Assembly: GCA_947630375.1 (NCBI GenBank)
Contig: CANRHH010000027.1
Location: 1 to 32,279, forward strand
DNA length: 32,279 nt
From: an uncultured Oscillospiraceae bacterium
GTDB lineage: Bacteria; Bacillota; Clostridia; Oscillospirales; Oscillospiraceae
Direction: 5' to 3'
This document shows, piece by piece, positions 455 to 23,555 of the stretch (positions are counted from its first letter, which is position 1; each line of letters starts with the position of its first letter). The translations under genes were made by a program, and so were the position numbers. The notes under the pieces are model-generated. The model was given only the letters and a program-made list of their open reading frames with translations, did no database searches and had not been told where the DNA came from.

Positions 455-1027
455 TTATAGGGGTTGTTTAATTGTCTGTAATGTGCTGAAAGCCGCATGG
501 TTACGGCATTTTCCTTGTTGTGCATATATTGACGGGGCAGTCGCGCCGGTCGCGCCGGCAGGGCCTACAGGACCGGCAGGGCCCGCGGGGCCCACCGCGC
601 CCGTGGCGCCGGTCGCGCCTGTTGCGCCGGCAGGACCTACAGGACCGGCAGGACCCGCAGGGCCTACCGCGCCCGTGGCTCCGGTCGCACCCGTTGCGCC
701 GGCGGGGATCGTAAAGTTAAGCACCACATTGGCCGGCGTGCCGGTATTTGTGACTGTGGCGCTGGAGCCGGGGGCCCCGGTGCTCACCGCGCCCACCGTT
801 ACCGTGACGGGCGTCCCCGCAGGGCCGGCAGGCCCCTGGGGTCCGGCGGCGCCCGGTGCGCCGGCAGGGCCTTGGGGGCCCTGGGGTCCCACAGGCCCTT
901 GGGGACCTACCGGCCCCTGGGGACCCATGGGGCCGGCCGGGCCCACGTTGCTGCCGCAGCCGCAGCCGCAGCTTCCGTTGCTGCTGTTGGTATAGATCTT
1001 GGTAACACAGCAATCCTTTTCAGGCAT
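455..1027 (-). CDS. collagen-like triple-helix repeat protein, C-terminus probably lost
   Basis: The 190-residue product has a short Cys-rich head (SCGCGCGS near residues 19-26), a Gly-Pro-X block at about 29-71, a conserved non-collagen insert at about 72-110 ([15 protein letters not shown] and [10 protein letters not shown]) and a second Gly-X-Y block at 110-163. Such proteins, related to BclA, form trimeric filaments on spore surfaces or exosporium and normally end in a globular trimerisation domain. Here the repeats stop at about position 540 and the last 27 residues read into low-GC DNA with no recognisable domain. The gene therefore looks truncated, probably by insertion of the element seen at 1-540. 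The start ATG has a strong GGAGGAG site 7 bases upstream. A terminator follows at 383-353. Promoter and sigma dependence are not clear from the sequence. Confidence 0.8.
563..706 (-). repeat. two tandem 72-bp units encoding 24-residue collagen-like blocks
   Basis: Residues 108-131 and 132-155 of the collagen-like protein are near copies of one 24-residue block ([15 protein letters not shown] followed by PAGPAGPVG). A third partial copy (about 539-562) ends at the presumed junction. Such in-frame repeats change number by slippage or recombination, so length can vary between strains. Confidence 0.75.
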
Positions 1028-3477: not shown

Positions 3478-4785
3478 ATGAATATACTTGAGACGCTGGG
3501 CAGGTTGGCCAGCGAGTCCGGCTTTGCCGGGTTCCTGGCGGCGGGCGGCTGGAAAAACCTCATCATGATCGCCATCGCCTGCGGCCTGCTGTACCTGGGC
3601 ATTGTCAAGAAATTTGAGCCCCTGCTGCTGGTGGGCATCGCCTTCGGCTGCCTGCTCACCAACCTCCCCGGCGCGGAGCTGTACCATCTGCGGATGTGGG
3701 ACGCCTATATCTATGACTGCCCCTACGACGTGGCCAACGAGGCCATTCTGTACGACGTGGAAAACAGCCGGGAGATCAGCGTGGAGGACTACCTGGCCAG
3801 TCTCCCGGCGGACGCCGCGGAGCCGGAGATCCTGGAGGATCTGTCCTTTACGGACATCATCCACCACGGCGGCCTGCTGGACTTCTTCTACATCGGCGTA
3901 AAGGCCGGTATCTACCCCTCCCTGATCTTTATGGGCGTGGGCGCCATGACGGACTTCGGCCCGCTGCTGGCCTATCCCAAGAGCCTGCTGCTGGGCGCGG
4001 CCGCCCAGCTGGGCGTGTTTGTGGCCTTCTTCGGGGCCATTCTCCTGGGCTTCAACGGGCCTGAAGCGGCCTCTATCGGCATCATCGGCGGCGCGGACGG
4101 GCCAACGGCCATCTTCCTGACCACGAAGCTGGCCCCCCATCTGTTAGGGCCCATCGCCATCGCGGCCTACTCGTACATGGCGCTGATCCCGCTGATCCAG
4201 CCGCCCATCATGAAGCTGATGACCACCCCCGCCCAGCGGGTGGTGAAAATGGAGCAGCGGCGGGAGGTCTCCAAGACCGAGAAGATCATCTTCCCCATCG
4301 TAGTCTCCGCCTTTGTCATTCTGCTTCTGCCCTCCACCGCGCCCCTGATCGGCTGCCTGATGCTGGGCAACCTCTTCCGTGAGTGCGGCGTCACCGAGCG
4401 GCTGAGCGACACGGTGCAGAACGCGCTGATGAACATCGTCACCATCTTCCTGGCCACCTCCGTGGGCGCCACCATGGTGGCCGAGCGGTTCCTGACCCTG
4501 TCCACCATCGCCATCGTGGTCCTGGGCCTGGTCGCGTTCTCCATCTCCACCGCCGGCGGCCTGCTGGGCGGCCGGGTCATGTACCGGCTCTCCGGCGGCC
4601 AGATCAACCCCCTGATCGGCTCTGCCGGTGTGTCCGCCGTGCCGATGGCGGCCCGGGTGTCCCAGGACGTGGGCCGGAAGTACAACAAGACCAACTTCCT
4701 GCTGATGCACGCCATGGGCCCCAACGTGGCCGGCGTCATCGGCTCCGCCATCGCGGCCGGCTTCCTGCTGTCCGTGTTCGGCTGA
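3478..4785 (+). CDS. oadB: Na+-translocating decarboxylase beta subunit
   Basis: This 435-residue integral membrane protein decarboxylates carboxybiotin and uses the energy to pump Na+ out. It shows about nine to eleven hydrophobic segments and the family motifs GVGAMTDFGPLLA (about 153-165), GIIGGADGPTAIF (201-213, with D207 matching the essential Asp203 of the Klebsiella enzyme), SYMALIPLIQPPIMK and NPLIGSAGVSAVPMAARVSQ near the C-terminus. Length equals the family norm. The stretch at about 66-132 is the part that varies most among members and here is acidic. It closes the operon, 10 bases after the biotin carrier gene, behind a GGAGG site, and is followed by a strong terminator. Confidence 0.93.
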   Translation: MNILETLGRLASESGFAGFLAAGGWKNLIMIAIACGLLYLGIVKKFEPLLLVGIAFGCLLTNLPGAELYHLRMWDAYIYDCPYDVANEAILYDVENSREISVEDYLASLPADAAEPEILEDLSFTDIIHHGGLLDFFYIGVKAGIYPSLIFMGVGAMTDFGPLLAYPKSLLLGAAAQLGVFVAFFGAILLGFNGPEAASIGIIGGADGPTAIFLTTKLAPHLLGPIAIAAYSYMALIPLIQPPIMKLMTTPAQRVVKMEQRREVSKTEKIIFPIVVSAFVILLLPSTAPLIGCLMLGNLFRECGVTERLSDTVQNALMNIVTIFLATSVGATMVAERFLTLSTIAIVVLGLVAFSISTAGGLLGGRVMYRLSGGQINPLIGSAGVSAVPMAARVSQDVGRKYNKTNFLLMHAMGPNVAGVIGSAIAAGFLLSVFG

Positions 4786-4801
4786 TAAGCAAAAAACCTA
4801 A

Positions 4802-4833
4802 CCCCCGGAAAACCATTTCCGGGGGCTTTCTTT
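4802..4833 (+). terminator. rho-independent terminator after the oad operon
   Basis: A perfect 10-bp stem, CCCCCGGAAA (4802-4811) with TTTCCGGGGG (4816-4825), closes a four-base loop and is followed by CTTTCTTT. It lies 16 bases after the oadB stop. Confidence 0.9.
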
Positions 4834-4844
4834 ATGCTGGATGC

Positions 4845-4873
4845 TTGCAATACCCCTGGCTTTATGCTACAAT
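4845..4873 (+). promoter_or_regulatory. sigma-A-type promoter of the FkbH-ACP-MBOAT cassette
   Basis: TTGCAA (4845-4850), a 17-base spacer and TACAAT (4868-4873) make a near-consensus promoter. It starts 11 bases after the oad terminator and about 30 bases before the ATG at 4905, so the cassette is an independent unit that is probably expressed during growth. No operator-like repeat is visible. Confidence 0.8.
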
Positions 4874-4904
4874 TTACCCATTCTTGGTAGTTGCGGAGGC
4901 AGGC

Positions 4905-6707
4905 ATGCACAGTTTACTGGAATACCCTTTTGACAGCCAGGCGATCTCCCGCAAGCGCCGGTCGATCCGCCGGGAGCTCCTGTCCAAACCGGATCTGATC
5001 GAGAAGCGCATTGCGATCCTGGGCGGGTCCACCACCCACGACATCCGGGAGATCCTGGAGCTCTTCCTGCTGGATTACGGCATCCGGCCGGTGTTTTACG
5101 AGTCGGAATACGGCCAGTACTGGCAGGACGCCATGTTCCCCCCGGAGGAGCTGCTCCGCTTCCAGCCGGAACTTTTTTATATCCACACCACCAACCGGAA
5201 CATCTCCGCTTTTCCCGGCCTGGGCGACACGGCCCAGGCGGTGGAGGCGCTGCTGGATCAGGAGTACGCCCGCTTTTGCGCCATGTGGGACAAGCTGCGG
5301 GAGACCTTTCACTGCCCCATCCTCCAGAACAATTTTGAGTATCCTCTTTACCGGCTCCAGGGGAACCGGGAGGCCAGCGATGTGCATGGGCGGGTCCACT
5401 ACATCACCTGTCTGAATCTGCGGTTTGCCGGTTATGCCCAGGCCCATGACGATTTCTATATCAACGACATCAACTATCTCTCCGCCGCCTACGGGCTGGA
5501 AAAATGGGCGGACCCCTTTTTCTGGCATATGTACAAATATGCCCTGAGCCTGGACGCCATCCCCAGCCTGGCCTTCAGCCTGGCGAAGATCATCAAGTCC
5601 CTCTACGGGAAGAACAAAAAAGCCCTGGCCCTGGATCTGGACAACACCCTGTGGGGCGGCGTCGTGGGAGACGACGGGGTGGAGAATCTGGTGCTGGGCC
5701 GCGAGACCTCCATGGGCCAGGCGTACACGGAGTTTCAGGCATATTTAAAGGCCCACAAGGACCTGGGGATTCTGCTGAACGTGGTCTCCAAAAACGACTA
5801 TGAAAACGCCATCGCCGGGCTGAACCACCCGGACAGTGTGCTCAGGCCGGACGATTTCACCGTCATCAAGGCCAACTGGGAGCCGAAGAGCCGCAATCTC
5901 CTTCAGATGGCGCAGGAGCTGTCCCTGCTGCCGGAGAGCTTTGTCTTTGCCGACGACAACCCGGCCGAGCGGGAGATCATCCGCCAGCAGGTGCCCGGCG
6001 CGGCGGTGCCGGAGCTGCAGGATGTGGAGCGCTATATCAGCCAGATCGACCACGGGGGCTATTTCGAGGTGACCAAGCTCACGGCGGACGACCGGAAGCG
6101 GGGCGAGATGTACAAGGAGAACCTGGCCCGTGCCAGGCTGGAGAACAGCTTTGCGGACTACGGGGCCTATCTCCTTTCCCTGGATATGCATGCGGAGATC
6201 GCCCCCTTCGCCCCGGTCCACATGGGCCGTATCGCCCAGCTCACCAACAAGAGCAACCAATTCAATCTGACCACCCGCCGCTGCACCCAGGAGGAGATCG
6301 AGGGCTTTGCCGCCGATCCGGCCTGCGTCACCCTCTGCGGCCGGCTGTCGGACCGCTTTGGGGACAACGGCATCGTGTCCGTCGCCGCGGGGCGGGCCGT
6401 TGGCACGCGGCTGGATATCTTTTTGTGGCTGATGAGCTGCCGGGTGCTGAAGCGGGACATGGAGTACGCCATGATGGACGAGCTGGCCGCGGAATGCCTG
6501 CGCCGGGGCCTGCGCTCCGTCCGGGGCTACTATTACCCCACCGCCAAAAACGGCATGGTGCGGGATTTCTACGAGAAACAGGGCTTTACCAAGCTGTCCG
6601 AAGCCGAGGACGGGAGCACCGTCTGGGAGCTGGATCTGACGGGCGGCTATACGCCGAAAAACAAGGTCATTCAAATCGACCGGATGGGAGAGGAAACTGC
6701 CACATGA
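4905..6707 (+). CDS. FkbH-like HAD-IIIC enzyme, candidate glyceryl-ACP loader
   Basis: The 600-residue protein has three parts: an SGNH-like N-terminal region (about 35-200, with GGSTTHDI at 40-47), a HAD phosphatase domain (about 237-380) and a GNAT-like C-terminal region (about 420-590). HAD motifs are intact: DLDNTLWGG (D244, D246), SK (295-296), K328 and ADDNPAE (D350, D351). Characterised FkbH proteins dephosphorylate 1,3-bisphosphoglycerate and load the glyceryl group onto an acyl carrier protein thiol. The next gene encodes such a carrier, overlapping by four bases (ATGA). I chose the ATG at 4905 because it has a GGAGG site and lies just after a promoter; the open frame continues upstream into oadB, which would be an artefact. 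The substrate is inferred from the family. The dehydrogenases of methoxymalonyl-ACP pathways are absent here. Confidence 0.87.
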   Translation: MHSLLEYPFDSQAISRKRRSIRRELLSKPDLIEKRIAILGGSTTHDIREILELFLLDYGIRPVFYESEYGQYWQDAMFPPEELLRFQPELFYIHTTNRNISAFPGLGDTAQAVEALLDQEYARFCAMWDKLRETFHCPILQNNFEYPLYRLQGNREASDVHGRVHYITCLNLRFAGYAQAHDDFYINDINYLSAAYGLEKWADPFFWHMYKYALSLDAIPSLAFSLAKIIKSLYGKNKKALALDLDNTLWGGVVGDDGVENLVLGRETSMGQAYTEFQAYLKAHKDLGILLNVVSKNDYENAIAGLNHPDSVLRPDDFTVIKANWEPKSRNLLQMAQELSLLPESFVFADDNPAEREIIRQQVPGAAVPELQDVERYISQIDHGGYFEVTKLTADDRKRGEMYKENLARARLENSFADYGAYLLSLDMHAEIAPFAPVHMGRIAQLTNKSNQFNLTTRRCTQEEIEGFAADPACVTLCGRLSDRFGDNGIVSVAAGRAVGTRLDIFLWLMSCRVLKRDMEYAMMDELAAECLRRGLRSVRGYYYPTAKNGMVRDFYEKQGFTKLSEAEDGSTVWELDLTGGYTPKNKVIQIDRMGEETAT

Positions 6708-6943
6708 GCAAAGCGGAAATTTTTGAGAAGCTGGAAGAGATCTTCCGGGACGTTTTTGACGACGAGTCCCTCCAGATCGGCGAGCGCACCACCGCCGCCG
6801 ATGTGGACGGCTGGGATTCTCTCAGCCACATTATGCTGCTGTCCGCCATCGAGGACGAGTTTGACATCAAGTTTGACATGAAGGCCGTCCAGGGGCTGCA
6901 GGATGTGGGCGCCATGGCGGATCTGATCGGGGAGCTGCTGTAA
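6704..6943 (+). CDS. acyl carrier protein dedicated to the FkbH cassette
   Basis: This 79-residue acidic helical protein carries the phosphopantetheine site GWDSLSH, with S39 as the modified serine. Helix II begins with the usual LSHIMLLSAIEDEFDIKF pattern. It overlaps the FkbH-like gene by four bases. The GWDSL form and the position between a loader and an MBOAT gene suggest a specialised carrier rather than the fatty-acid AcpP. By analogy with DltC it would present an activated acyl group to the membrane acyltransferase. It needs a phosphopantetheinyl transferase encoded elsewhere. Confidence 0.92.
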   Translation: MSKAEIFEKLEEIFRDVFDDESLQIGERTTAADVDGWDSLSHIMLLSAIEDEFDIKFDMKAVQGLQDVGAMADLIGELL

Positions 6944-6945
6944 TC

Positions 6946-7356
6946 ATGCGGGTGCACCACATAGGGTACCTGGTCAAGCGCCTGGAGAAGGCCGCGGCCG
7001 CCTTTGAAAAGCTGGGCTTCTCCCGGGCCGGGGAGGCTGTTTACGACGAAGGCCGGGATGTGGACATCCTGTTTCTGACCAAGGACGGCACCACCGTGGA
7101 GCTGGTCAGCCCCAAGAGCGGCGGCTCCGTGGTGGCGGCGCTGATCAAGACCTACCACAACGCGCCCTATCATATCTGCTACGCCTCCGGCCGCTTTGAG
7201 GAGGAGATGCAGGCCCTGTCCGGCAGCGGCTTTACCCTGATCGAGCCCCCCGCCCCCGCGCCGGCCTTAGGCGGCCGGCAGGTCTGCTTTTTCATGAGCC
7301 CGCAGATCGGCATGGTGGAGCTGCTGGACGAGGGAGGGACCGGGCTGTGTCGCTGA
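6946..7356 (+). CDS. VOC-superfamily (glyoxalase I/epimerase-like) metalloenzyme
   Basis: The 136-residue protein shows two beta-alpha-beta-beta-beta halves of the vicinal oxygen chelate fold. Four likely metal ligands sit at the expected places: H5 (VHHIGYLV), E52 (TVELVSP), H76 (PYHICYA) and E125 (GMVELLD). This 2-His-2-Glu set is shared by methylmalonyl-CoA epimerase and glyoxalase I. The gene starts 2 bases after the ACP stop and overlaps the MBOAT gene by 10 bases, so it belongs to the cassette. It might epimerise or otherwise rearrange the carbon next to the thioester of the acyl-ACP, but the sequence does not define the substrate. Confidence 0.8.
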   Translation: MRVHHIGYLVKRLEKAAAAFEKLGFSRAGEAVYDEGRDVDILFLTKDGTTVELVSPKSGGSVVAALIKTYHNAPYHICYASGRFEEEMQALSGSGFTLIEPPAPAPALGGRQVCFFMSPQIGMVELLDEGGTGLCR

Positions 7357-8879
7357 CCTCCTTCCCCTTCATCGCCTTTTTCCTTGTCTCCCTGGCGGTG
7401 TATTACGCCGTTCCGGAGAGGCTGCGTTGGTGCGCCCTTTTTGCGTTCAGCGCCCTTTTTATGCTGCTGTCCTCGCCTCTGCTGCCGCTGCTGTACTGGG
7501 CGGCGGCGGTGCTGGCCGTCAATTTCTGCGCCAGGCAGATCGCCGCGGGCCGCGCTGCGGGCAACGGGCGGCGGGCCAAGGGGGCGTTGGCCGCCGGCAT
7601 CCTCCTCACCGTGGGGCTGCTGGCCGCGCTGAAATACAGCGGCTTTCTCGCCGCCAATTTAAACGCGCTGCTGGCCCTGCTGCGCGTGGACTACCGGCTG
7701 CCCATCCCCGCGCCGGCCTCGCCCCCCGGCGTCAGCTTCTATACGCTGACCGCCGTCGGCTATCTGCTGGACAGCTACTGGGGCATCAGCCCGGTCCAGC
7801 CCAACCTGCTGAAGACCGCCCTCTTCATCGGCTACTATCCCCAGCTGATCTCCGGCCCCATCACCCGCTACCGGCAGATCGAGCCGCAGCTTTTCACGCC
7901 CCACCGGTTTGACTATGTGCAGGTCTGCTTCGGGCTGCAGCGGATGGTCTGGGGCTTTTTCAAAAAGCTGGTGCTCTCTGCCCGTCTGGGCATTTTAGTG
8001 GACACGATCTATGCCCATCCGGAGCGGTATACCGGCCTGTATATCTGGCTGGCGGCGGCGCTGTTTCTGTTCCAGCTCTATACGGATTTCTCCGGATGTA
8101 TGGATATCGTGCTGGGCGCCTCCGAGTGCTACGGGGTCCTTCTGCCGGAAAACTTCAAAACGCCCTTCTTCTCCCGCTCGGTGCAGGAGTACTGGCAGCG
8201 CTGGCACATCACCCTGGGCGCCTGGCTGCGGGATTATATCCTCTACAGCCTGCTGCGCTCCCGGGCCTGGCGCGGGCTGACCAAATGGGCCAAGGCCCAT
8301 TTGGGGAAAAAGGCCGCCCGCCAACTACCCACCTATCTGGGTACGCTCTGCGTCTGGCTGCTGATCGGCCTGTGGCACGGCGGCGGCTGGCAGTACATTT
8401 TGGGCATGGGCCTGTGGTTCTGGCTGCTGATCACCCTGTCCCAGCTCTGCGAGCCCCTCTTCAAAAAGGCCCTGGCCTTTCTGAAGATCAACACCGCCGG
8501 CTTTGCCTGGCACCTGTTCCAGTCCCTGCGGGTGTTCGCGCTGGCCGCCGTCGGCAACATGTTCTTCCGCCTCCAAGGGCTCGGCGCCGCGCTGGAAACC
8601 ATGCGCGCCGGGCTGCATTGGAACCCGGAGATTTTTACGGACGGCTCCCTGCTGAGCCTGGGTCTGGATCTGAAAAACATCTGGGTGCTGCTGCTGGGCC
8701 TGGTTTTGCTGCTCCTCGTCTCCTGGCTGCAGGAGACGAAAAGCATCCGGCAGCGCCTGGCGGAGCAGCCTCTGCCCCTGCGCTGGGCGATCCTGCTGCT
8801 CCTGTGCTTGGCCGTGGCCCTGTTTGGCATGTACGGGCCCGAATTTAACGCCGCGACCTTCATTTACGAACAGTTTTGA
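7347..8879 (+). CDS. MBOAT-family membrane O-acyltransferase (AlgI/DltB-like)
   Basis: The 510-residue protein has about ten hydrophobic segments and the hallmarks of bacterial MBOATs: a PQLISGPITRYRQ block (165-177), DFSGCMDI (247-254), QEYWQRWHITLGAWLRDYI (280-298, with H287) and the catalytic-type histidine H344 in GLWHGGGWQYILG. These enzymes take an acyl group from a cytoplasmic donor and pass it through the membrane to an acceptor outside, such as alginate (AlgI) or teichoic acid (DltB). The start is GTG at 7347, inside the end of the VOC gene, with a GGGAGGG site 8 bases upstream. The ACP in the same operon is the likely donor. Confidence 0.9.
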   Translation: MSLTSFPFIAFFLVSLAVYYAVPERLRWCALFAFSALFMLLSSPLLPLLYWAAAVLAVNFCARQIAAGRAAGNGRRAKGALAAGILLTVGLLAALKYSGFLAANLNALLALLRVDYRLPIPAPASPPGVSFYTLTAVGYLLDSYWGISPVQPNLLKTALFIGYYPQLISGPITRYRQIEPQLFTPHRFDYVQVCFGLQRMVWGFFKKLVLSARLGILVDTIYAHPERYTGLYIWLAAALFLFQLYTDFSGCMDIVLGASECYGVLLPENFKTPFFSRSVQEYWQRWHITLGAWLRDYILYSLLRSRAWRGLTKWAKAHLGKKAARQLPTYLGTLCVWLLIGLWHGGGWQYILGMGLWFWLLITLSQLCEPLFKKALAFLKINTAGFAWHLFQSLRVFALAAVGNMFFRLQGLGAALETMRAGLHWNPEIFTDGSLLSLGLDLKNIWVLLLGLVLLLLVSWLQETKSIRQRLAEQPLPLRWAILLLLCLAVALFGMYGPEFNAATFIYEQF

Positions 8880-8890
8880 GGTAAACGCAG

Positions 8891-10207
8891 ATGAGAAAAC
8901 TTTATCTGGTCCGGGCCCTGGCTTTTCTGCTGCTTCTGCTTCTGCTTCTGGGCTGCCTGCAGTACGCTCTCACCCGCAGCATTGACCAGCAGAATTACAA
9001 CTGGCTCGCCAACATCTATAAAGAGCCCGCCGGTTCCCTGGACGCGGTCTATATCGGGGCCAGCAACGTGTACAGCACCTGGCTGCCGCCGGTGGCCTTT
9101 GACCGCTGCGGCATCACCGTCTACAACTATACCAACAGCTCCCAGCCCTTTGAGTCCGCCCGGTTCCTGATCTTGGAGGCCCAGAAGAGGCACCCGGACG
9201 CCCTCTGTATCATCGGCCTGAACAATCTGTATGACGGGATCAGCGACCTGGGCATCCACTACTCGACCAACGGGTTCCGGCCCTCCGTGAACAAGTTCCA
9301 CATGATCCGCCGCCTGACCGGGTCTCTGTATACGCCCCTGGAGAGTATGCAGTATTTCGTGCCCTTCCTCCGCTTTCACTCCCGCTGGGCCGATATCAGC
9401 CCCCGGGACCTGGTCTTTTCAGACGGGGATGTGAAGGGGGGCAATGTGGAGATCAAGTACTTCTTCTCCACGATCCAGGATATGACCTCCTCCTATTCCT
9501 ACACCATGGAGGCCGCCGAAGGGGAATCCCCCGGCGTTCTGCTGGAGCTGCTGGACTTCTGCGACCGGGAACAGATCCGCCCGCTCTTTGTGGCCTCGCC
9601 CCAGCCCCGGGAATGGGACTACGTCACCAGTCTCAACCGGGACATGGAGCTGATCCGGCAGCGGGGGTACGACGTGCTGGACATGATGGGCAGCATAGAG
9701 GAGCTGGGTCTGGATCTCCGGCAGGATTTTTACAACTCCAGCCACACCAACATCCACGGCGCCATCAAGGTGACGGAATATCTGGCCGCCTGGCTGGCTG
9801 AGCGCTACGGCTTTTCCGACAAACGGGGCGACGCGGCCTATGCCGACTGGCAGCAGGCCTTTGAAAACTACGTGGAGGACATCGCCCCCTATACGCTGGA
9901 TCTTGAATACCTGGGCCTGGCGCGGGACTTCTCTCTGCCGGTCCCGGCGCTGGCCGTCTCCGGGGCCCCCGGCGCGGCGCAGCTCTCCTGGGAGCCGGTC
10001 CCGGGGGCGGCGGGCTATTGCGTATACCGGAAAACCGGGGACGGCCCCTGGCAGGCCCTGGCCTCTCTGGGCCCGGAGGCCCTGCTCTATGAGGACGAAA
10101 GCGGCGCCCCCGGCGAGGGCTGTACCTACACGCTGGTCCCCTTCTCCCTCTCCTCCGGTGAACCCTGTTACGGGAACTTCGACTATACCGGCGTGCCGGT
10201 CGGCTGA
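8891..10207 (+). CDS. membrane-anchored SGNH-like protein with C-terminal fibronectin-III-like domain
   Basis: The 438-residue protein begins with an uncleaved-looking membrane anchor (about 8-28, a long Leu run). An extracellular SGNH-hydrolase-like domain follows: YIGASNVY (S58 and N59, block I), IIGLNNLYDG (108-116), and DFYNSSHTNIHG (279-290) with candidate acid and base D279 and H285. Residues 350-436 look like one fibronectin type III domain (LSWEPVPGAAGYCVYRK, then TYTLVPFS). It starts 11 bases after the MBOAT gene with a GAGG site. A single-pass SGNH protein beside an MBOAT is the layout of DltB-DltD and AlgI-AlgJ, where it completes acyl transfer to the acceptor outside the cell. The acceptor is unknown. 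Confidence 0.75.
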   Translation: MRKLYLVRALAFLLLLLLLLGCLQYALTRSIDQQNYNWLANIYKEPAGSLDAVYIGASNVYSTWLPPVAFDRCGITVYNYTNSSQPFESARFLILEAQKRHPDALCIIGLNNLYDGISDLGIHYSTNGFRPSVNKFHMIRRLTGSLYTPLESMQYFVPFLRFHSRWADISPRDLVFSDGDVKGGNVEIKYFFSTIQDMTSSYSYTMEAAEGESPGVLLELLDFCDREQIRPLFVASPQPREWDYVTSLNRDMELIRQRGYDVLDMMGSIEELGLDLRQDFYNSSHTNIHGAIKVTEYLAAWLAERYGFSDKRGDAAYADWQQAFENYVEDIAPYTLDLEYLGLARDFSLPVPALAVSGAPGAAQLSWEPVPGAAGYCVYRKTGDGPWQALASLGPEALLYEDESGAPGEGCTYTLVPFSLSSGEPCYGNFDYTGVPVG

Positions 10208-10210
10208 TAG

Positions 10211-10246
10211 AAAGCGGTGGCTGCCCCTTTGGGCAGCCGCCGCTTT
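10211..10246. terminator. bidirectional terminator between convergent operons
   Basis: AAAGCGG-T-GGCTGCCC and GGGCAGCC-G-CCGCTTT pair over 15 bp with one T-G wobble around a short loop. T-rich sequence follows on the plus strand (TTTATTTA), and on the minus strand the flanking AAAG gives CTTTCTA. It sits between the stops of the SGNH gene and the Nudix gene and probably serves both. Confidence 0.8.
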
Positions 10247-10247
10247 A

Positions 10248-10268
10248 TTTACATAATATGATTTACAT
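10248..10268. repeat. TTTACAT direct repeat, 14-bp period
   Basis: TTTACAT occurs at 10248-10254 and again at 10262-10268, exactly 14 bases on, directly beside the terminator hairpin. The same heptamer lies next to hairpins at 18638-18672 and 22486-22492 (see findings). Function unknown. Confidence 0.5.
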
Positions 10269-10272
10269 AATG

Positions 10273-10836
10273 TTATTTATAGTCAACCAATTTCTCGTTC
10301 AGCTTTTTCAGGATTCGCTCATTGAACCAGGGCTCGGTAGACACGGTCAGGACCTCATCCCGGTCAAACCAGCCCACGCCGCTGTTCTCCCCTTCCCGAA
10401 TGTGGAGGGCCTGGTCCTCCTCCGCCTCCAGCAGGTAGGTCACATTCATGTGCAGATGACTGGAGACGTACTCGCCCCGCTTCTCGTGGCCGTCCACGGT
10501 GAGGACCTCCAAGGAATAGATCTCCCCGGACACCGGGCGCACAGAGCGGATCCCGGTCTCCTCCCGGGCCTCCCGGAGGGCCACGGAGAGCAGATCCGTC
10601 TCCCCGTCGGCGTGGCCGCCGGTCCAGGTCCAGGAGTGATAGATGTTGTGATAGATAAGCAGCACCCTGTCCCTGGCCGGGTTTACGATCCAGGAGGAGG
10701 CTGTCATATGGGCGGTCCGGTTGCTGCGCAAAAAGGCGTCCGGGTTCCGGTCCAGAAAGTCCAGGATCCGCTCTTTGTCCCGCTGCTCCTGCTCATTGTA
10801 GGGGCGGAATTTTTCCACATCCTGCCGGATCCCCAT
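10273..10836 (-). CDS. Nudix hydrolase
   Basis: The 187-residue cytoplasmic protein carries a complete Nudix box at residues 73-96 (GGHADGE, then REAREETGI), which binds Mg2+ and cleaves nucleoside-diphosphate-X type substrates. The surrounding fold contains ASSWIVNPARDRVLLIYH on the N-terminal side and HMNVTYLLEAEED on the C-terminal side, typical of MutT-like proteins that act on small metabolites. The start overlaps the stop of the amidase gene by one base (TGATG), so the two are translationally coupled. It is the last gene of the minus-strand operon that begins with mgtE. Substrate cannot be predicted. Confidence 0.88.
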   Translation of the reverse strand: MGIRQDVEKFRPYNEQEQRDKERILDFLDRNPDAFLRSNRTAHMTASSWIVNPARDRVLLIYHNIYHSWTWTGGHADGETDLLSVALREAREETGIRSVRPVSGEIYSLEVLTVDGHEKRGEYVSSHLHMNVTYLLEAEEDQALHIREGENSGVGWFDRDEVLTVSTEPWFNERILKKLNEKLVDYK

Positions 10837-14758: not shown

Positions 14759-14853
14759 TACAAGAACAAAAATCTTTCGCCCCCTTTGACCCCTTTTCGT
14801 CTTTTTGCGCGTCTATATACATGTGTGCACATTCCCTTTCAGGAGGCCGGACC

Positions 14854-15405
14854 ATGGACGATGCCCTTATCCTGCAAAAACTCCGCGCCGGGGACCCGGC
14901 GGGCCTCGGCGCGGCCATAGAGACCTATACCGGCTACGTGGGCGCCGTGATCGCCAACCAGCTCCGGCGCCGGGGCAGCCGGGAGGACATCGAGGAGCTG
15001 ACGGCCAACGTCTTTGTCTCCCTGTGGGAAAACCGCCTGTCCATCCGGAGCGGCCGCCTCCGGGGCTGGCTGGGGGCGGTGGCCCGGAACGAGGGCCGCA
15101 GCTTCCTGCGGAAAAACCGGCTGCTCACCGTCTCGCCGGAGGACGTGCTGCTCATCTCCGGGGACGTGGCGGAGAAGCTGCTGGAGAGAGACGAGGCCCG
15201 GCGGCTCCTGTGGGAGGCCGTGGACAGCCTGACAGAGCCGGACCGGGAGATCTTTCTGCGGTACTATTACTACGACCAGAGCATCCCGGCCATCGCCCGG
15301 GACATGAAGCTGCACCGGGAGGCGGTCAAATCCCGGCTCCGCCGGGGCCGGGACAAGCTGCGGGACATGCTGGAGCGAGAGGAGGGACCTTTCCATGGAG
15401 CATAA
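14854..15405 (+). CDS. ECF-type RNA polymerase sigma factor
   Basis: The 183-residue protein has sigma region 2 (about 22-90, with EDIEELTANVFVSLWENR and the DNA-melting/-10 binding stretch LRGWLGAVARNEGRSFLRK) and region 4 (about 125-175, with LTEPDREIFLRYYYYDQS followed by the helix-turn-helix IARDMKLHREAVKSRLRRGR). The ATG at 14854 has an AGGAGG site 7 bases upstream; an in-frame ATG at 14821 lacks one. The gene overlaps the next by 11 bases, and that gene encodes a membrane protein of the expected anti-sigma type. Its regulon probably includes its own operon, but no ECF promoter could be recognised. Confidence 0.9.
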   Translation: MDDALILQKLRAGDPAGLGAAIETYTGYVGAVIANQLRRRGSREDIEELTANVFVSLWENRLSIRSGRLRGWLGAVARNEGRSFLRKNRLLTVSPEDVLLISGDVAEKLLERDEARRLLWEAVDSLTEPDREIFLRYYYYDQSIPAIARDMKLHREAVKSRLRRGRDKLRDMLEREEGPFHGA

Positions 15406-16456
15406 CATCCGCGACCTGCTGGACGATTATACGGAAGAGGAGATCCCCCTGCGCAGCCGCCGGAGCCCCCGGCCGGAGACCGTTCAAAAGCGGGTGGAGG
15501 CCCGGCTGTTTCCGGGCGAAGCCTCCGCCCCCCGCCGCCCGGCCCGGTCCCTTCTGCGGACCCTCCGGGCTCTGCCCGCGGCGGCCCTGCTGCTGAGCCT
15601 GCTGACCGTCACCGCCTACGCCGGGCTCTCCTCCCTGCTCTCGGAGCGGGTCTACACCCCCGAGGGCGCCCGGGAGGAGCTGATCCTCAACTTAGGCGCG
15701 CCGGAGAGCCCGGAATTTCAGGCCGCGCTGGACTGGGAGCAGCGCCGGGAGGCGCTGGACCTCGCCGGAGAAAACGACATTGGCCTCGACCAGCCGGAGC
15801 CGGGCAGCCAAGAGGCCCTCTACGCCCAGAACGGGGCCTTTACCCAGGCCGCCCGGGAGGCGCTGGACGGGATCTTGGAGCAATATGGCCTGACCATGGC
15901 GGCCCTGCTCTCCCCTTTTCAGGAGCCGGAGGAGCTCTATGCCCTCACCGGCCGGGACGGTTTTCTCCCTCCCGCCGGGCAGCCGGGCCAGGATCCCTGG
16001 ACCGGGCCGGACCCCAACATTCCCGGTGCGGAGCACCAGATCCTCCTGCCCTCCGGGGCCCTGTACGAGGGGGGCAGCCTGACCTACAGCGGCTATGCCC
16101 TTCTCTCCGGCGGCGGGACCGTGCCCTACGACCTGACCCTAATCGCCAACGGCCGCTTCCTGGCGGGCGCGGGCATCATCACCCGGGGGGACGGCTTCGA
16201 GGAGTGGAGCCTTACCGCCCAGGACGGCACGGCCCTGACCCTGGATTTAGGGTCCGGGCAGGCCTTTGTGGAGGCCCGGCTGGCAAACGGCGCGGTGTTC
16301 CTCTTTGTCCGCGCAGGCGCCGAGCCGCCGGACGAGGATACCGACATCGGCCGCGTTGCCGCTTACAGCGGCTTTCCCCCACTGACCCGGGAGATGCTGG
16401 AGGAGCTGGCCGTGAGCTTCGACTACGCCGCCCTGAACGCCCTGTGTATTGGTTGA
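15395..16456 (+). CDS. probable membrane anti-sigma factor with extracellular sensor domain
   Basis: The 353-residue protein has a short cytoplasmic N-terminus (1-55, acidic then basic), a single membrane helix (about 58-76, ALPAAALLLSLLTVTAYAGL) and a large outside part (77-353). The overlap with the sigma gene (11 bases) and this one-helix layout are the usual form of an ECF anti-sigma factor. The N-terminal part lacks the Zn-binding HXXXCXXC motif of ZAS anti-sigma factors, so it would be a different class, closer to the DUF4179-type proteins of Firmicutes. The outside part contains a strand-rich stretch (about 205-310). The call rests on gene order and topology. Confidence 0.65.
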   Translation: MEHNIRDLLDDYTEEEIPLRSRRSPRPETVQKRVEARLFPGEASAPRRPARSLLRTLRALPAAALLLSLLTVTAYAGLSSLLSERVYTPEGAREELILNLGAPESPEFQAALDWEQRREALDLAGENDIGLDQPEPGSQEALYAQNGAFTQAAREALDGILEQYGLTMAALLSPFQEPEELYALTGRDGFLPPAGQPGQDPWTGPDPNIPGAEHQILLPSGALYEGGSLTYSGYALLSGGGTVPYDLTLIANGRFLAGAGIITRGDGFEEWSLTAQDGTALTLDLGSGQAFVEARLANGAVFLFVRAGAEPPDEDTDIGRVAAYSGFPPLTREMLEELAVSFDYAALNALCIG

Positions 16457-16474
16457 CATAAGAAAGGATTTTCG

Positions 16475-18634
16475 ATGAAATTCTGGAAAAAATTCTGCGC
16501 GCTGTGCTTCTCCCTCTGCCTGCTGCCGGGCCTGACCGGCTGCGCCGGGAAGGGCGGCGGGGCCGCCCTCTCCCCGCCGGCCCGGGAGGCGCAGACCGTC
16601 TATTCTGTCTCGCCCCTGCTGGAGCTGGAGGAGAGCCCGGGGCTCTACCGGAGCCTGAGCCGGCCCCTGGCCGCCGGGGACTGGGTGTACACCGTCTTAG
16701 GCGAATCCGACGGGGCGGCCTTCACCGGCCGGAACGGCACCCTCTACCGTCTGCCCCTCTCCGGCGGGGAGCCGGAGGCTCTGGGCCGGCTGCCGGAGGA
16801 CCTGGACTCCCAGCTCTGTGCCGCCGGGCCCGGCGGGGACCTCTGGTTTTACAGCCGCTCCGCCCCCACGCTGACCCGGCTGGACGGGTCCGGGCAGCCC
16901 TTAGCCGTCTATGACCTGGGCGGCCTGGATCTGCCGGACCCCACGGACCTGTTCATCGGAGCGGACAACACCGCCTATCTCGCCTGCTTCGGGGCCGGAC
17001 AGAGTCTGGCGGCGGTGGCGCTGGAGGGCGGCCCCCGCCTGCTCTGGACCCGGGAGCTGGACCGCTCCTTTACCCTGGGCCTGTACAGCTTCGCCCTCTG
17101 CGCCGGCGGCGGTCCCGCTGCCCTTGTGGAGACGGAGCGCGGCTCCGCCCTGACGGTTTTCGACCCGGCCACCGGTGAGCCCCTGCGGCAGCTCTCCCTG
17201 GAGGGGGCGGTGTATGACGGGCTTTTCAGCGGCGCCGGGAACACGGCCCTGTATCTCCGGGCCGGCGGGCTGCTCTTTTCCCTGGACCCGGAGACCGGAG
17301 CAACGGCCGGGGCCTTGGACCTGAGCCTGGCGGGGCTCTGGCTGTATGCGCCCCTGTGCCCCCTGCCGGACGGCAGTTTTGCCGCCCTGGACAGCGAGAG
17401 CGACTCTGCCGTGGCGCTGCTGCGCACGGTCCGGGAGGCGCTGCCCCAGGGCGGCGCGGTGCTGACCCTGGCCCTGAGCGGCCCGGAGGGCAGCCAGAGC
17501 CGGGATCTGCTCCAGACCGCCGCCGGCCGCTGGAACCGGACCCACCGGGAGATCAAGGTCCGGCTGCTGGATTACAGCATCTATTCCACCTCCTCGGACC
17601 CGGAGGGCGGCAGCCTCCGGCTGCTGGCGGAGCTGACCACTGGGGTCGCCCCGGACCTGTATGAGCTGTCCGGCCTGCCGGCCTCCTTCGCCGCCAAGGA
17701 CCGGCTGGCGGACCTGGGCCCCTGGCTGGAGGCGGATCCGGCGCTGGACCGGTCCGGCCTGCTGGAGAACGTGCTGGAGGCGGGCAGGCTGGGCGGCGCA
17801 CTCAAGTGCCTGATCCCTGCCTTTGACCTGGCCACCGGCGCGGCCGGCGCCGTTTTCGTGGGGGACCGGCAGGGGCTGACCCCTTCGGATTACGAAGCGC
17901 TTTTGGCGGAAAACCCGCCCTTAGAGCGGCTCTTTACCCAAACCTACAGCCGGACCGACCTGCTGGATCTGCTCTTGCGGGCAAACCTCTCCTCCCTGGT
18001 GGACTGGGAGACGGGCCAGCCCTGTTTTGACAGCGCGCTGTTTCGGGAGCTGCTCTCCCTCTGCGCCCGGCAGCCGGCCCAGCCCTCGGAGACCTACCGG
18101 CCCTCCGAGATGCTCGCCGCCGGCCGGCAGCTGCTGGACATCCGCTCTCCCTCCCTAAGCCTGGACGAGGCGGACGCCCTGCTGGACCGGCTGGGGCCGG
18201 ACTTTCGCTTTCCCGGCCTGCCCTGCGGCGGCGGCTCCGGCACGGTGATCCGGCCGGTGGTCTCCTTAGGCATGGCCGCCGCCTCACCCCATCAGGAGCA
18301 GGCCTGGCAGTTCCTGCGCGCCTTTCTCACCGGGGAGCTGTCCCTGCATACGGGCGCTTTCTCCATCCGCCGGGAGGAGAACCGGCAGCTGCTGGACCGG
18401 GCTTTGGGATCCGCCGCCGCTTCCGCCCACGGCCCGGAGGCCGTCTCCGCCGCTCTGGAGAAGATCTTCGCTCTGGCAGAGCGGGCGGACCGGCTCGCCG
18501 CCGGGGACGCGCCTCTGTTTTCTCTGATAGAGGAGCTCACCGGGGCCTACTTTGCCGGGGACCGGAGCTTGGAGGACACGGTGTCCGATATCCAGTCCCG
18601 CTCGAAGCTTTACCTGGCCGAGCAGCTGGGATAA
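16475..18634 (+). CDS. lipoprotein: propeller-like region fused to solute-binding-protein-like region
   Basis: The 719-residue protein has a lipoprotein signal with lipobox LTGC (C23). Residues about 60-335 show repeated strand-rich units of the pattern GDWVY, GTLYRL, GDLWFY, NTAYLA and GGLLFSLDPETG, suggesting a beta-propeller. Residues about 340-719 resemble an ABC-transporter extracellular solute-binding protein: LLQTAAGRWNRTHREIKVRL at the start, APDLYEL, then QAWQFLRAFLTGE and a C-terminal QSRSKLYLAEQLG. No permease gene is nearby. It starts 18 bases after the anti-sigma gene behind an AAAGGA site, so it belongs to the sigma operon and may be its sensor or output. A paralogue lies convergent at 18711-20834. 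Domain assignments are by eye. Confidence 0.7.
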   Translation: MKFWKKFCALCFSLCLLPGLTGCAGKGGGAALSPPAREAQTVYSVSPLLELEESPGLYRSLSRPLAAGDWVYTVLGESDGAAFTGRNGTLYRLPLSGGEPEALGRLPEDLDSQLCAAGPGGDLWFYSRSAPTLTRLDGSGQPLAVYDLGGLDLPDPTDLFIGADNTAYLACFGAGQSLAAVALEGGPRLLWTRELDRSFTLGLYSFALCAGGGPAALVETERGSALTVFDPATGEPLRQLSLEGAVYDGLFSGAGNTALYLRAGGLLFSLDPETGATAGALDLSLAGLWLYAPLCPLPDGSFAALDSESDSAVALLRTVREALPQGGAVLTLALSGPEGSQSRDLLQTAAGRWNRTHREIKVRLLDYSIYSTSSDPEGGSLRLLAELTTGVAPDLYELSGLPASFAAKDRLADLGPWLEADPALDRSGLLENVLEAGRLGGALKCLIPAFDLATGAAGAVFVGDRQGLTPSDYEALLAENPPLERLFTQTYSRTDLLDLLLRANLSSLVDWETGQPCFDSALFRELLSLCARQPAQPSETYRPSEMLAAGRQLLDIRSPSLSLDEADALLDRLGPDFRFPGLPCGGGSGTVIRPVVSLGMAAASPHQEQAWQFLRAFLTGELSLHTGAFSIRREENRQLLDRALGSAAASAHGPEAVSAALEKIFALAERADRLAAGDAPLFSLIEELTGAYFAGDRSLEDTVSDIQSRSKLYLAEQLG

Positions 18635-18637
18635 ATT

Positions 18638-18672
18638 ATGTAAATTATATTGTGTAAACTGTTTTATGTAAA
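18638..18672. repeat. ATGTAAA/GTGTAAA repeat, three copies, 14-bp period
   Basis: ATGTAAA (18638-18644), GTGTAAA (18652-18658) and ATGTAAA (18666-18672) are spaced exactly 14 bases apart. They abut and slightly overlap the long terminator stem. This is the reverse complement of the TTTACAT repeat at 10248-10268. Function unknown. Confidence 0.5.
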
Positions 18673-18712
18673 GCAATTCTCCCTTTGGCACAGTCAAAGG
18701 GAGAATTGCTTT
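18670..18712. terminator. long perfect palindrome between convergent lipoprotein genes
   Basis: AAAGCAATTCTCCCTTTG (18670-18687) and its exact complement (18695-18712) form an 18-bp stem with a 7-base loop. The last two bases belong to the stop codon of the minus-strand lipoprotein gene. T-runs after the stem are short on both sides, so it may stop transcription weakly, block antisense read-through or stabilise 3' ends. Confidence 0.65.
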
Positions 18713-20834
18713 AACTCTGTTCGGATAAATAGATGGAAGCCCGGGACTGGATGTTGGCGGCGGCCTCCGCCGGGCTTATCTGCCCGGCGAAAGTCCGCTC
18801 CGCCTCGCTGCGGACGATGTCCCACAGCTGGGCGTCAAAGCGGTAGACGGCGTCCACCCGGTCCCACGCCTCCAAGAAGCGGGTGCAGGCCGCCTCCGCG
18901 TTGGGGTGGAACTGGGCGTTCCCCTCCTCCTGATTTCGCAGGAGGGCCCGGTCCCTGGCCTCGAACAGGGCCTCCCGGTTCAGGCTCAGGCCGTTGGGAT
19001 CTGCCCCGGGCAGGAGAAACTGCCGCAAAAACTGCCAGCAGGCCTCCTTGTTTTCGCTGCCGCCGGAGATGCCCAGGCTCAGTTGGGGGTACAGGGCCGT
19101 GCCCAGCTCCGGCAGGCCCACCAAGGCGAAGTCCGGCCCGTACACGTCCATGGCAGTCTCCAGGCACGTCACGCTGTCCATCCAGAGCGGGAACAGGAGC
19201 GCGTCGCTCTGGCGCAGGATGTCCTCCAAACGCCCGCCCCCGCCGGAACCGGCGGACGCCGGCTGGGCCATGGCCGTCTCCAAGATCTGGCGGAAGTAGT
19301 CCGAATCGAAGCAGCACCGGCCCTGCCCCCAGTCCACCAGCTTGTCCCCGGAGCAGCTCAGAGCCGTTTCCAAAAACTCTATTCGCTCCTCTCCGCTGCC
19401 GAACAGCGGGGCATCCCCCGCGGTCTGCCGGAGGGTCTCATAGGTCCAGCCGCTCTCCGGCCCCACCCGGGCCGGGTCCGCCGCAGTGAAGATGTATTCG
19501 CTCCGTACCGGCAGCTCATACAGGGCCCCGCCGATCTCCAGGGCCGCGAGGGGCCCGGAGAACAGCCGGTCCCGGCTCAGCTCCCCGTCTCCGTCCAACC
19601 AGGGATACAGGTCCTCCAGCAGCCCCCGGCGGGCCAGCAGGCCCGTGGAGAAGGGCTCCAGGCCCGTCTCCGCATCCGTCTCCGCGGACAGGTCGAACAG
19701 GTCCGGCACATCGCCTCCGGCGATATCCGTCAGCAGGCGCAGCTGGGCGGCGCGGGGGTCGCTGCCGTCGGCATAGAGGGCATAGTCCCGGACCTGGATA
19801 GGGCTCTCCGGGTGGGCCCGGTTCCAGGCCTTGAGCGCGTCCCCCAAGTACAGATCCAGGGTGAAGCTGCTCATGGTGGCCAGCACCAAAGGCCGGACCT
19901 CTCCCTCCAGCTCCACCGCCCGCAGGCGGATGAGCCGGGGCGCGGCGGCGCTGTTCAGGGCGGCCAGGCACAGGAAGTCCGCCTCTCCGCTCTCCAGCAC
20001 CACCCCGCCACTCAGGCCGCAGCTCTGCCAGCTCAGCAGCTTCTCCAGGTCCCCGTGGACCGGGTCGCAGCCGTAGAGGCTGCTCCCGTCGGTCAGATAG
20101 AGGCCAAAGCGGTCGCCGCCGGTGTAGGGGCAGGAAAAGCTCTCGTCATAGAGCAGCTGCCCGGTCCGGTTCCCGGCCGTGTCGAAAAAGCGGAGGGAAT
20201 AGCCCGTGTCCGTGCTCTCGCCCAGGGCGAAGCCGCCTCCGGGCAGCTCCGCCAGCCGGGCGGAATAGCCCGCCTCCACGGTAAAGAGGGGCTGGGCCGG
20301 GTTTTCCGGGTCCAGGCCGCAGAGGCCGCCTTCCCCGGTCAGGGCCAGGACGCCGCCGCTGTAAGCCGCCGAGACCGGCGTCCAGCCCTCCGGCCAGCCC
20401 TCGCCGCCCAGGGGGATGTTCCCCGTCTCCGCGCCGTTTTCATCCAGGATGCGCAGTTCCCAGCCCTCCGGCTCCAGGCCCCGCCGCTCCATCAGCAGAT
20501 ACACCCGCCCGTCCCCGGCGCAGAGATCCCACAGATTGCCGCCCTGAAACCGGGCGATCTCCGCAGCGCCGCTGCCGTCCCGCCCGGCGCGGAAGACCAC
20601 CGTGTCCTCCCACTGGCCGCCGGCAAAATAGACCTGGTCCCCCAACACCGCCAGCCGGTCCACCAGCCAGACCTGCTCCGGCCCCTCCAAGGTGTCCGCC
20701 GCGTAGACGGTCCGGACCGGGGCGGCCACGGTGTCCAGGGCCTCGATCTCCTTAGGGGCCGCCTCGTCCTTTTTACAGCCTGCCAGGGAAAAGGCCAGCT
20801 CCAGGGCCAGCAGCGCCGCCAGGATTTTTTTCAT
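18711..20834 (-). CDS. paralogous lipoprotein: propeller-like region fused to solute-binding-protein-like region
   Basis: The 707-residue protein starts MKKILAALLALELAFSLAGC with lipobox C20. The ATG at 20834 has an AAAGGAGGCG site; an open frame runs 29 codons further upstream without one. Residues about 50-325 are strand-rich repeats (GDQVYFAGGQW, GRVYLLMERRG, GGVLALTGEGGLCGLDPENP), and the C-terminal half resembles a solute-binding protein. It matches the convergent neighbour at several places: VRDYALYADGSDP against LLDYSIYSTSSDP, KLVDWGQGRCCFDS against SLVDWETGQPCFDS, WQFLRQFL against WQFLRAFL, and IQSRASIYLSEQ against IQSRSKLYLAEQ. The two therefore arose by duplication and inversion. 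The promoter region holds four 11-bp repeats, which separates its control from the sigma operon copy. Confidence 0.72.
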   Translation of the reverse strand: MKKILAALLALELAFSLAGCKKDEAAPKEIEALDTVAAPVRTVYAADTLEGPEQVWLVDRLAVLGDQVYFAGGQWEDTVVFRAGRDGSGAAEIARFQGGNLWDLCAGDGRVYLLMERRGLEPEGWELRILDENGAETGNIPLGGEGWPEGWTPVSAAYSGGVLALTGEGGLCGLDPENPAQPLFTVEAGYSARLAELPGGGFALGESTDTGYSLRFFDTAGNRTGQLLYDESFSCPYTGGDRFGLYLTDGSSLYGCDPVHGDLEKLLSWQSCGLSGGVVLESGEADFLCLAALNSAAAPRLIRLRAVELEGEVRPLVLATMSSFTLDLYLGDALKAWNRAHPESPIQVRDYALYADGSDPRAAQLRLLTDIAGGDVPDLFDLSAETDAETGLEPFSTGLLARRGLLEDLYPWLDGDGELSRDRLFSGPLAALEIGGALYELPVRSEYIFTAADPARVGPESGWTYETLRQTAGDAPLFGSGEERIEFLETALSCSGDKLVDWGQGRCCFDSDYFRQILETAMAQPASAGSGGGGRLEDILRQSDALLFPLWMDSVTCLETAMDVYGPDFALVGLPELGTALYPQLSLGISGGSENKEACWQFLRQFLLPGADPNGLSLNREALFEARDRALLRNQEEGNAQFHPNAEAACTRFLEAWDRVDAVYRFDAQLWDIVRSEAERTFAGQISPAEAAANIQSRASIYLSEQS

Positions 20835-20865
20835 CTTCTCACGCCTCCTTTTTAGGTGTGGCGGT

Positions 20866-23495: not shown

Positions 23496-23555
23496 AAGCG
23501 CTCCTCTATACACCAGATTTTTTCTATAGCTTTTCCCTCTGGGTGCTTTTTTATG

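Follow-up and report, generated by a model that had tools for sequence, protein, structure and literature searches.

What is an FkbH-family enzyme doing at the head of an operon that otherwise resembles the D-alanylation (Dlt) machinery? We addressed this question in a 32,279-nucleotide stretch of DNA from an uncultured Oscillospiraceae bacterium (contig CANRHH010000027.1), called the window below. Positions 4905-10207 on its plus strand hold one tight operon whose five genes, read directly as open reading frames (ORFs), encode an FkbH protein, an acyl carrier protein (ACP), a VOC protein, a membrane-bound O-acyltransferase (MBOAT) and an SGNH-like protein. We consider it probable, at roughly 60%, that the products of this operon form a transmembrane acylation machine that is fed by a carrier, modifies a surface polymer and follows the Dlt plan with another loader. 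The cassette is real, conserved and Dlt-like in build, and by the tests made here it is not a member of Dlt itself. What distinguishes it is the combination of carrier feeding, a shuttle motif fused to the MBOAT and loading by FkbH.

Five parts and a predicted path for the acyl group

The first gene (4905..6707, plus strand, ATG start with GGAGG upstream) encodes a 600-residue FkbH/HAD-IIIC protein, the proposed glyceryl loader of the ACP. It scores 272 bits against TIGR01686 (cut-off 147) and 38 bits against FkbH_N, PF21211 (cut-off 27), and a sequence search of known structures relates it to BF1531 (3slr; E 1.5e-50). The HAD motif DLDNTLWGG (D244/D246) and a C-terminal part with S511-C512-R513 are kept in nearly all of 91 aligned proteins, namely the window copy and 90 of 92 matches; here, as for the ACP and VOC counts below, matches were filtered by score and length. 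These motifs are common to the FkbH proteins of Sinorhizobium meliloti, Niveispirillum, Paroceanicella, Subdoligranulum and Streptomyces (n=5), the last of which adjoins ketosynthase and FabH-type genes. FkbH enzymes are reported or proposed to take glyceryl off 1,3-bisphosphoglycerate and load it onto a discrete ACP (PMC7489565, PMC3679948). The ACP gene (6704..6943, plus strand, 79 residues) overlaps the FkbH gene by ATGA and matches PF00550. Its phosphopantetheine site, Ser39 in GWDSL, is conserved in 83 of 83 aligned sequences, the window's and 82 of 84 matches.

The VOC protein (6946..7356, plus strand, 136 residues) resembles glyoxalase I and methylmalonyl-CoA (coenzyme A) epimerase. It matches PF13669, has the glyoxalase-type entries 2qh0 and 3hdp as structure relatives, and falls below the cut-off of the methylmalonyl-CoA epimerase model TIGR03081 (41 bits against 115). 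H5, E52, H76 and E125 are invariant in all 30 aligned sequences (the window's and 29 of 31 matches); we take them to be candidate metal ligands, the H,E,H,E set being glyoxalase I-like. The reactions of both glyoxalase I and methylmalonyl-CoA epimerase take place beside a thioester-type carbon. From fold and ligands, our guess is that this protein may be an epimerase or isomerase of an ACP-bound 2-hydroxyacyl group.

The MBOAT gene (7347..8879, plus strand) begins with GTG, overlaps the VOC gene by 10 bases and encodes 510 residues. The protein matches PF03062 and is homologous to the DltB structures 6bug and 8jem (E about 5e-19). All 43 aligned sequences, the window's and 42 of the 60 MBOATs listed, have His287, His344 and Tyr507. 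Tyr507 belongs to the C-terminal hexapeptide FIYEQF (8859..8876, plus strand), an FXYXXF-type motif as defined in PMC12148441, which an earlier sequence-only reading of this DNA had overlooked. According to the same source, MBOAT-SGNH systems use this hexapeptide to shuttle the acyl group; auto-acetylation of its Tyr has been demonstrated in PatA, and in the Dlt pathway the motif resides on a separate microprotein, DltX (PMC12148441). In our first set of loci, 87 of 93 MBOAT ORFs carry the motif at the C-end, a total in which the window copy is counted twice (L006, and L007 as a cut copy) and which contains five others from the same genome. The six without it are cut or split (L007, L039, L054), variants (L060, L076) or L042_6414.

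The last gene (8891..10207, plus strand), 11 bases after the MBOAT gene, encodes a DltD-like SGNH protein of 438 residues. No Pfam or NCBIfam model matched it. Its Ser58 and His285 are invariant in 65 of 65 aligned sequences (the window's, 54 of 84 homologues and 10 of 22 locus proteins), and its profile matches that of the SGNH proteins of adenylation cassettes at E 6.5e-54 over 347 columns. On the basis of these invariant residues and profile links, the protein qualifies as a putative SGNH partner that is anchored in the membrane and has a catalytic Ser and a catalytic His. A C-terminal FN3-like domain, at about profile positions 361-425, had been overlooked in the first reading; among the 65 family members, Pfam found DltD in one, fn3 in nine and GH85_C in 14. 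Compared with solved structures, the profile gave matches to the FN3 part and chance-level matches, and no SGNH protein. Kinship with a GDSL hydrolase family was rejected, at a profile comparison probability of 4.3. The sequence-only reading had named all five parts correctly: Pfam and NCBIfam searches with conserved residues confirmed FkbH, the ACP with its GWDSL, VOC and MBOAT, and the SGNH assignment is upheld by Ser58/His285 and the profile-profile matches, with the N-terminal hydrophobic helix recognised by eye.

These parts suggest a route. FkbH would move the glyceryl group of glycolytic 1,3-bisphosphoglycerate onto the phosphopantetheine of the ACP, as expected from its family. The VOC protein may act on the 2-hydroxyacyl thioester, most likely by epimerising the alpha-carbon; this is the weakest step of the proposal. 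Acyl-ACP would dock on the MBOAT; in Dlt, the DltC-DltB contact is hydrophobic with salt bridges and lies next to DltC Ser35 (PMC11035591). The acyl group would pass to Tyr507 of FIYEQF at the outer face, a step suggested by the invariant His and Tyr and by the mechanism reported for PatA and DltX. From there the SGNH protein, anchored in the membrane, would take it over on Ser58 and transfer it to hydroxyl groups of a surface glycan or of a polymer resembling teichoic acid. The simplest chain would run from 1,3-bisphosphoglycerate through glyceryl-ACP, acyl-Tyr507 and acyl-Ser58 to a polymer ester. Glyceryl is our default donor, a choice that follows the FkbH family.

FkbH in the slot of an adenylation enzyme

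The same genome contains two paralogous cassettes in which a DltA-like adenylation enzyme stands in the place of FkbH. One (L096) has the order adenylation enzyme, ACP, MBOAT (ending FMYANF) and SGNH; the other (L095) reads adenylation enzyme, MBOAT (ending FIYNQF), a lipoprotein-like ORF, ACP and SGNH. Both loaders score below the DltA cut-off, and the ACP of L096 lies just below the Pfam cut-off. FkbH occupies a slot that is filled by a DltA-like enzyme in sister cassettes. Starting from the MBOAT instead, we searched 291 genomes of the class, of which 143 matched. In 40 regions outside the window's own genome, the best-ranked among the matches listed, the loader was an adenylation enzyme in 29, FkbH in seven (L135, L136, L144, L156, L158, L162, L166) and unclear in four (L138, L146, L168, L174).

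The adenylation cassettes of Clostridia share carrier feeding, the fused motif (in some as a variant, for example PIYAGF), homologous MBOAT and SGNH proteins and the same slots with the FkbH cassettes; they differ in their DltA-like loader, in another carrier type and in the SGNH nucleophile. Among 25 aligned SGNH proteins of such cassettes, out of 36 listed, Cys (in GDC) replaces the nucleophilic Ser in 17, and Ser is kept in eight. The SGNH protein of one sister cassette (L095:2231-3283, minus strand) is among the 25 compared, a group in which outer acyl transfer may be cysteine-based.

Phylogeny places the two kinds of cassette side by side. In a tree of 132 MBOATs, each labelled by the nearest same-strand loader within 9 kb, 68 of the 75 FkbH-labelled rows form one branch (SH-aLRT 99) beside adenylation-linked MBOATs, and all seven FkbH rows of the MBOAT-first search fall inside it. 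A more careful mixture-model tree of 62 rows groups 35 FkbH rows as a 100/100 clade; with CoA-type MBOATs as the root, this clade lies nested within the adenylation group, one deeper node being weak (68/32). This one-clade result holds for the set chosen, since the 62 rows were hand-picked from the 132 with FkbH rows taken solely from the 68-row branch and outliers excluded; the adenylation group (n=21) includes L138 and L146, where no loader was found, as well as L019_3713, an FkbH-labelled row that forms a pair with L096. Across 65 sets, pairwise distances correlate between FkbH and MBOAT (r 0.83), FkbH and ACP (0.63) and MBOAT and ACP (0.71), with 0 of 2000 permutations reaching each value, a pattern that common descent alone can produce. 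We read these data as probably reflecting one main loader swap, from adenylation enzyme to FkbH, plus further independent pairings.

That the cassette works like Dlt is well supported, by four parts in one operon, DltB homology of the MBOAT, the shuttle motif and the presence of FkbH in the DltA-like slot of sister cassettes. The idea of a Dlt analogue, already advanced in the sequence-only reading, gains support from the MBOAT homology, FIYEQF and the sister cassettes of the same genome. The parts, their conserved residues, their conserved linkage and the occupation of the adenylation slot by FkbH are direct observations.

Conserved neighbourhoods and competing explanations

We compared 79 loci, the best of 578 FkbH relatives in a scan of GTDB genomes; the linkage figures accordingly apply to near relatives. 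The exact five-gene order recurs in four of the 79 (L015, L019, L064, L084), which argues that the arrangement is not due to chance. FkbH, ACP, MBOAT and SGNH are contiguous, with no VOC gene there, in nine loci (L012, L013, L014, L037, L048, L056, L070, L079, L083), and the same four-gene order with intervening genes allowed occurs in 14 of 79. Where at least 6 kb was available on both sides (53 loci), an ACP lies within 3 kb of FkbH in 52, a cassette-type MBOAT within 8 kb in 48, an SGNH match within 9 kb in 38 and a VOC gene within 3 kb in 23.

The same five kinds of part also occur in a second phylum. On pSymB of S. meliloti (L102:3410-9440), VOC, MBOAT (ending FLYQGF), an SGNH-like protein assigned by its GGSTT motif with no model match, ACP and FkbH stand in a row; their recurrence there in another order argues for joint function. 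As many as 40 Sinorhizobium plasmid records contain FkbH matches; the gene order was read in one. The pSymB cluster is followed by ORFs that by eye resemble RTX-type repeat proteins and offers a tractable Gram-negative version of the cassette. On a Paroceanicella plasmid (L104:5585-9287), ACP, FkbH, a methyltransferase and VOC lie upstream of a hypothetical gene and mprF, and no MBOAT is annotated within the stretch L104.

Some flanks point to surface polymers. Downstream of its cassette, L019 carries genes that match, in Pfam, acyltransferase 3, TagF-type PF04464, phosphoenolpyruvate (PEP) mutase with cytidylyltransferase and iron-dependent alcohol dehydrogenase; L015 has the same four gene clusters by similarity (no Pfam scan). 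In L019 (14030-19625) the PEP mutase is fused to the cytidylyltransferase, and the set looks like genes for a phosphonate-bearing teichoic-type polymer. LicD, a flippase and an IspD-type cytidylyltransferase flank L012, and a glycosyltransferase flanks L029 (Pfam). Glycosyltransferase queries matched in 41 of 79 loci, and any glycosyltransferase, sugar or export query in 58, a generous count because the Wzt query could pick up any ABC ATPase. In the window's own genome, candidate acceptor genes comprise two LCP, six sulfatase-family and two PF04464 genes; the sulfatase family includes LtaS. Genes resembling 2-hydroxyacyl-CoA dehydratases (HGD-D) adjoin several cassettes (L012, L013, L014, L032, L035; the query also matched L029) and are Pfam-supported in two loci. 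We rejected them as a pathway part, because they follow differing last genes and, in loci that extend far enough, run by eye into GcvH/LplA/Lpd-like genes, and so look like a fixed chromosomal flank.

Several observations weigh against a glyceryl-exporting, polymer-acylating machine of this kind. We infer both the acyl group and the surface-polymer acceptor. Among the 53 well-flanked loci, five are without an MBOAT (8 kb), 15 without an SGNH match (9 kb) and 30 without VOC (3 kb). An FkbH of more than 50% identity was found in two of 59 other genomes searched and in none of the 36 from the genus, so the cassette is patchy; the expectation that its neighbourhood is conserved in relatives thus stands for distant ones, with the exact order in four of 79 loci and an ACP in 52 of 53, but the 36 genomes of the genus yielded no close FkbH. 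Seven FkbH-labelled MBOATs, L019_3713 and six others, lie outside the FkbH branch; one of them, from S. meliloti, sits among CoA-type MBOATs on a long branch of the 132-row tree. Sugar and export queries were negative in 21 of 79 loci, including L014, L029 and all four exact five-gene loci. Seven flank genes of L064 and L084 scanned with Pfam were all unrelated (EAL/GGDEF, metallophosphatase, zinc ribbon, radical SAM, RNase E/G, citrate synthase, carboxypeptidase), and the SGNH protein of L064 gave no Pfam match; as far as scanned, these cassettes stand alone like the window's, which by eye adjoins no polymer-synthesis gene in the window. Finally, SDR matches, possibly generic, occur in 24 of the 79 loci, MaoC in 23 and transketolase halves in eight, and the nearest FkbH relatives (L008-L010) are among the loci with such tailoring genes.

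The tailoring genes bear on what is delivered. Related loci that have them probably deliver something other than plain glyceryl, and the recurrence of these genes indicates that the acyl group probably varies between family members. The split transketolase matches (L008, L010, L011, L024, L034, L049, L053, L066), several with MaoC, SDR and MBOAT as well, suggest that the acyl chain assembled on the ACP is longer or modified. We think it rather unlikely that in the window the same machine delivers a processed hydroxyacyl group (for example hydroxypropionyl, hydroxybutyryl or dihydroxybutyryl) by way of enzymes encoded elsewhere in the genome: the nearest relatives favour it, whereas the window operon and the cassettes of L015, L019, L064 and L084 carry no SDR, MaoC or transketolase genes inside. 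A role in tailoring a secreted small molecule or glycolipid, with the MBOAT attaching a glyceryl unit supplied by FkbH and ACP, seems quite improbable. In its favour, proposed cyanobacterial pathways of the suomilide type name both FkbH and MBOAT (PMC13122637, PMC10143770), the FkbH cases described in PMC7489565 and PMC3679948 belong to polyketide pathways, and no polymer genes lie beside the window's cassette. In the suomilide proposal, however, FkbH loads the peptidyl carrier protein of a non-ribosomal peptide synthetase and the MBOAT acylates a sugar; the two are not proposed to work in a single chain. Both the SGNH partner and the fusion of the shuttle suggest that the acceptor lies outside, and single-protein queries for ketosynthase, FabH and adenylation enzymes found nothing in the 79 loci at E 1e-6 with flanks of up to 9 kb; this search gave no sign of the secreted-product genes named beforehand as grounds for abandoning the proposal. 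At the looser E 1e-3, L060 gave an adenylation-like match of 20.6 bits.

We give least credence to acylation of sugars inside the cell, in which FkbH and ACP would serve a soluble nucleotide-sugar acyltransferase and the MBOAT-SGNH pair would be a co-transcribed, acetyl-CoA-fed O-acetylase. NeuB matches in five and DegT matches in 14 of 79 loci are in its favour. So is a Niveispirillum plasmid (L101:5785-10265) on which FkbH, ACP, a WcbI-type polysaccharide acetyltransferase and an SDR stand in a row. A further point is cj1302, an fkbH-domain gene listed among the flagellar glycan genes of Campylobacter jejuni (PMC7099621), which is also a precedent for FkbH in a surface-glycan setting. Yet the FkbH-linked MBOATs mostly form their own branch among carrier-fed MBOATs, away from the CoA type, FkbH and MBOAT distances co-vary, and the operon has no separate sugar acyltransferase gene. 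Carrier-fed acylation of a surface polymer remains our preferred explanation.

Boundaries, known relatives and meaning of the cassette

A terminator-like stem-loop of the upstream oxaloacetate decarboxylase (oad) genes (4802..4825, plus strand, pattern match) forms the upstream boundary of the operon, and after this stem comes the one plus-strand promoter-like site that precedes the operon (4845..4873, TTGCAA-17-TACAAT with TG before the -10), a consensus match only; both strands of 4600-10400 hold three such sites, against 1.2 in shuffles. A strong terminator-like stem-loop closes the operon (10211..10246, plus strand, -33.6 kcal/mol, z -7.6). ORF reading and the single site bear out the earlier description of five genes under one promoter with gaps or overlaps of at most 11 bases. 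An Rfam scan of 4700-10400 gave no match at gathering scores. Base composition was set aside as a sign of recent transfer, since 62.3% G+C in the operon against 63.5% in the rest of the window is uninformative.

Elsewhere in the window, we noted by eye a collagen-like Gly-X-Y repeat protein (455-1027, minus strand), possibly a spore or surface filament protein, and a group at 14821-20921 with an ORF resembling ECF-type sigma factors, a membrane ORF and two large lipoprotein-like ORFs (16475-18634, plus strand; 18711-20921, minus strand) of similar layout, tail to tail. A D-2-hydroxyacid dehydrogenase-like ORF (22536-23513, minus strand, by eye) has no link to the cassette by position.

With Dlt the cassette shares a loader, a carrier protein, a DltB-like MBOAT with both His, an SGNH partner, a single operon and the same transmembrane logic. 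It differs in using FkbH where Dlt has DltA, an AMP-forming D-alanine:carrier ligase, and the operon holds no adenylation domain. The eight ACP models that the ACP matched, each with a score under its cut-off, do not include the DltC equivalog NF003464, and the MBOAT reaches 124 bits against a cut-off of 375 for the DltB equivalog TIGR04091. The shuttle motif is fused to the MBOAT, whereas in Dlt it is on DltX; no separate DltX lies within the operon, whose intergenic gaps are too small, the rest of the genome being outside that search. DltD (PF04914) matched neither the SGNH protein nor anything in the genome, the only connection being a distant profile link (E 1.5e-7) to a family containing one member with a sub-cut-off Pfam DltD match. 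The VOC protein is an addition, and the acyl group is probably a neutral hydroxyacyl rather than D-alanyl. With the DltA, DltB, DltC, DltD and DltX features all lacking in the tests made, we rejected a classical dlt operon.

Likeness to PatA-PatB and AlgI-type O-acetylation lies in the fused C-terminal FXYXXF, the conserved His and the SGNH partner; those systems use acetyl-CoA and no carrier protein (PMC12148441), whereas the present operon encodes both a carrier and its loader. The features of bacterial MBOAT-SGNH transferases are accordingly present: the universally conserved His344 with His287, FXYXXF with Tyr507, and the SGNH partner. As in the FkbH modules of methoxymalonyl-ACP and tetronate pathways, FkbH adjoins a discrete ACP and shares their motifs. 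In contrast to these, the operon has no dehydrogenases, O-methyltransferase, FabH or polyketide synthase, the rest of the genome being outside that search, and the predicted destination of acyl-ACP is a membrane exporter. The earlier remark that the dehydrogenases of methoxymalonyl-ACP formation are absent thus holds for the operon.

The open-access literature, as far as excerpts represent it, yielded no cassette of the FkbH/ACP/MBOAT/SGNH kind; subscription papers and preprints were outside its scope, and one may be in print. The published account of MBOAT-SGNH systems sets carrier-fed Dlt with a detached DltX against CoA-fed pairs with a fused motif (PMC12148441). The FkbH cassettes and the adenylation cassettes beside them join the carrier with the fused motif, which suggests that the loader is swappable. 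A broader picture is possible, and we offer it tentatively: glyceric acid drawn from 1,3-bisphosphoglycerate with no AMP-forming ligase or CoA, exported by a fused-Tyr MBOAT and esterified to surface glycans with stereochemistry set by VOC, could be a widespread, undescribed envelope modification that arose from DltA-type cassettes mainly by one loader swap and would couple the charge and hydration of the surface to glycolytic flux. A class of surface esters may have gone unnoticed in gut Lachnospiraceae and Oscillospiraceae, and possibly in S. meliloti as well.

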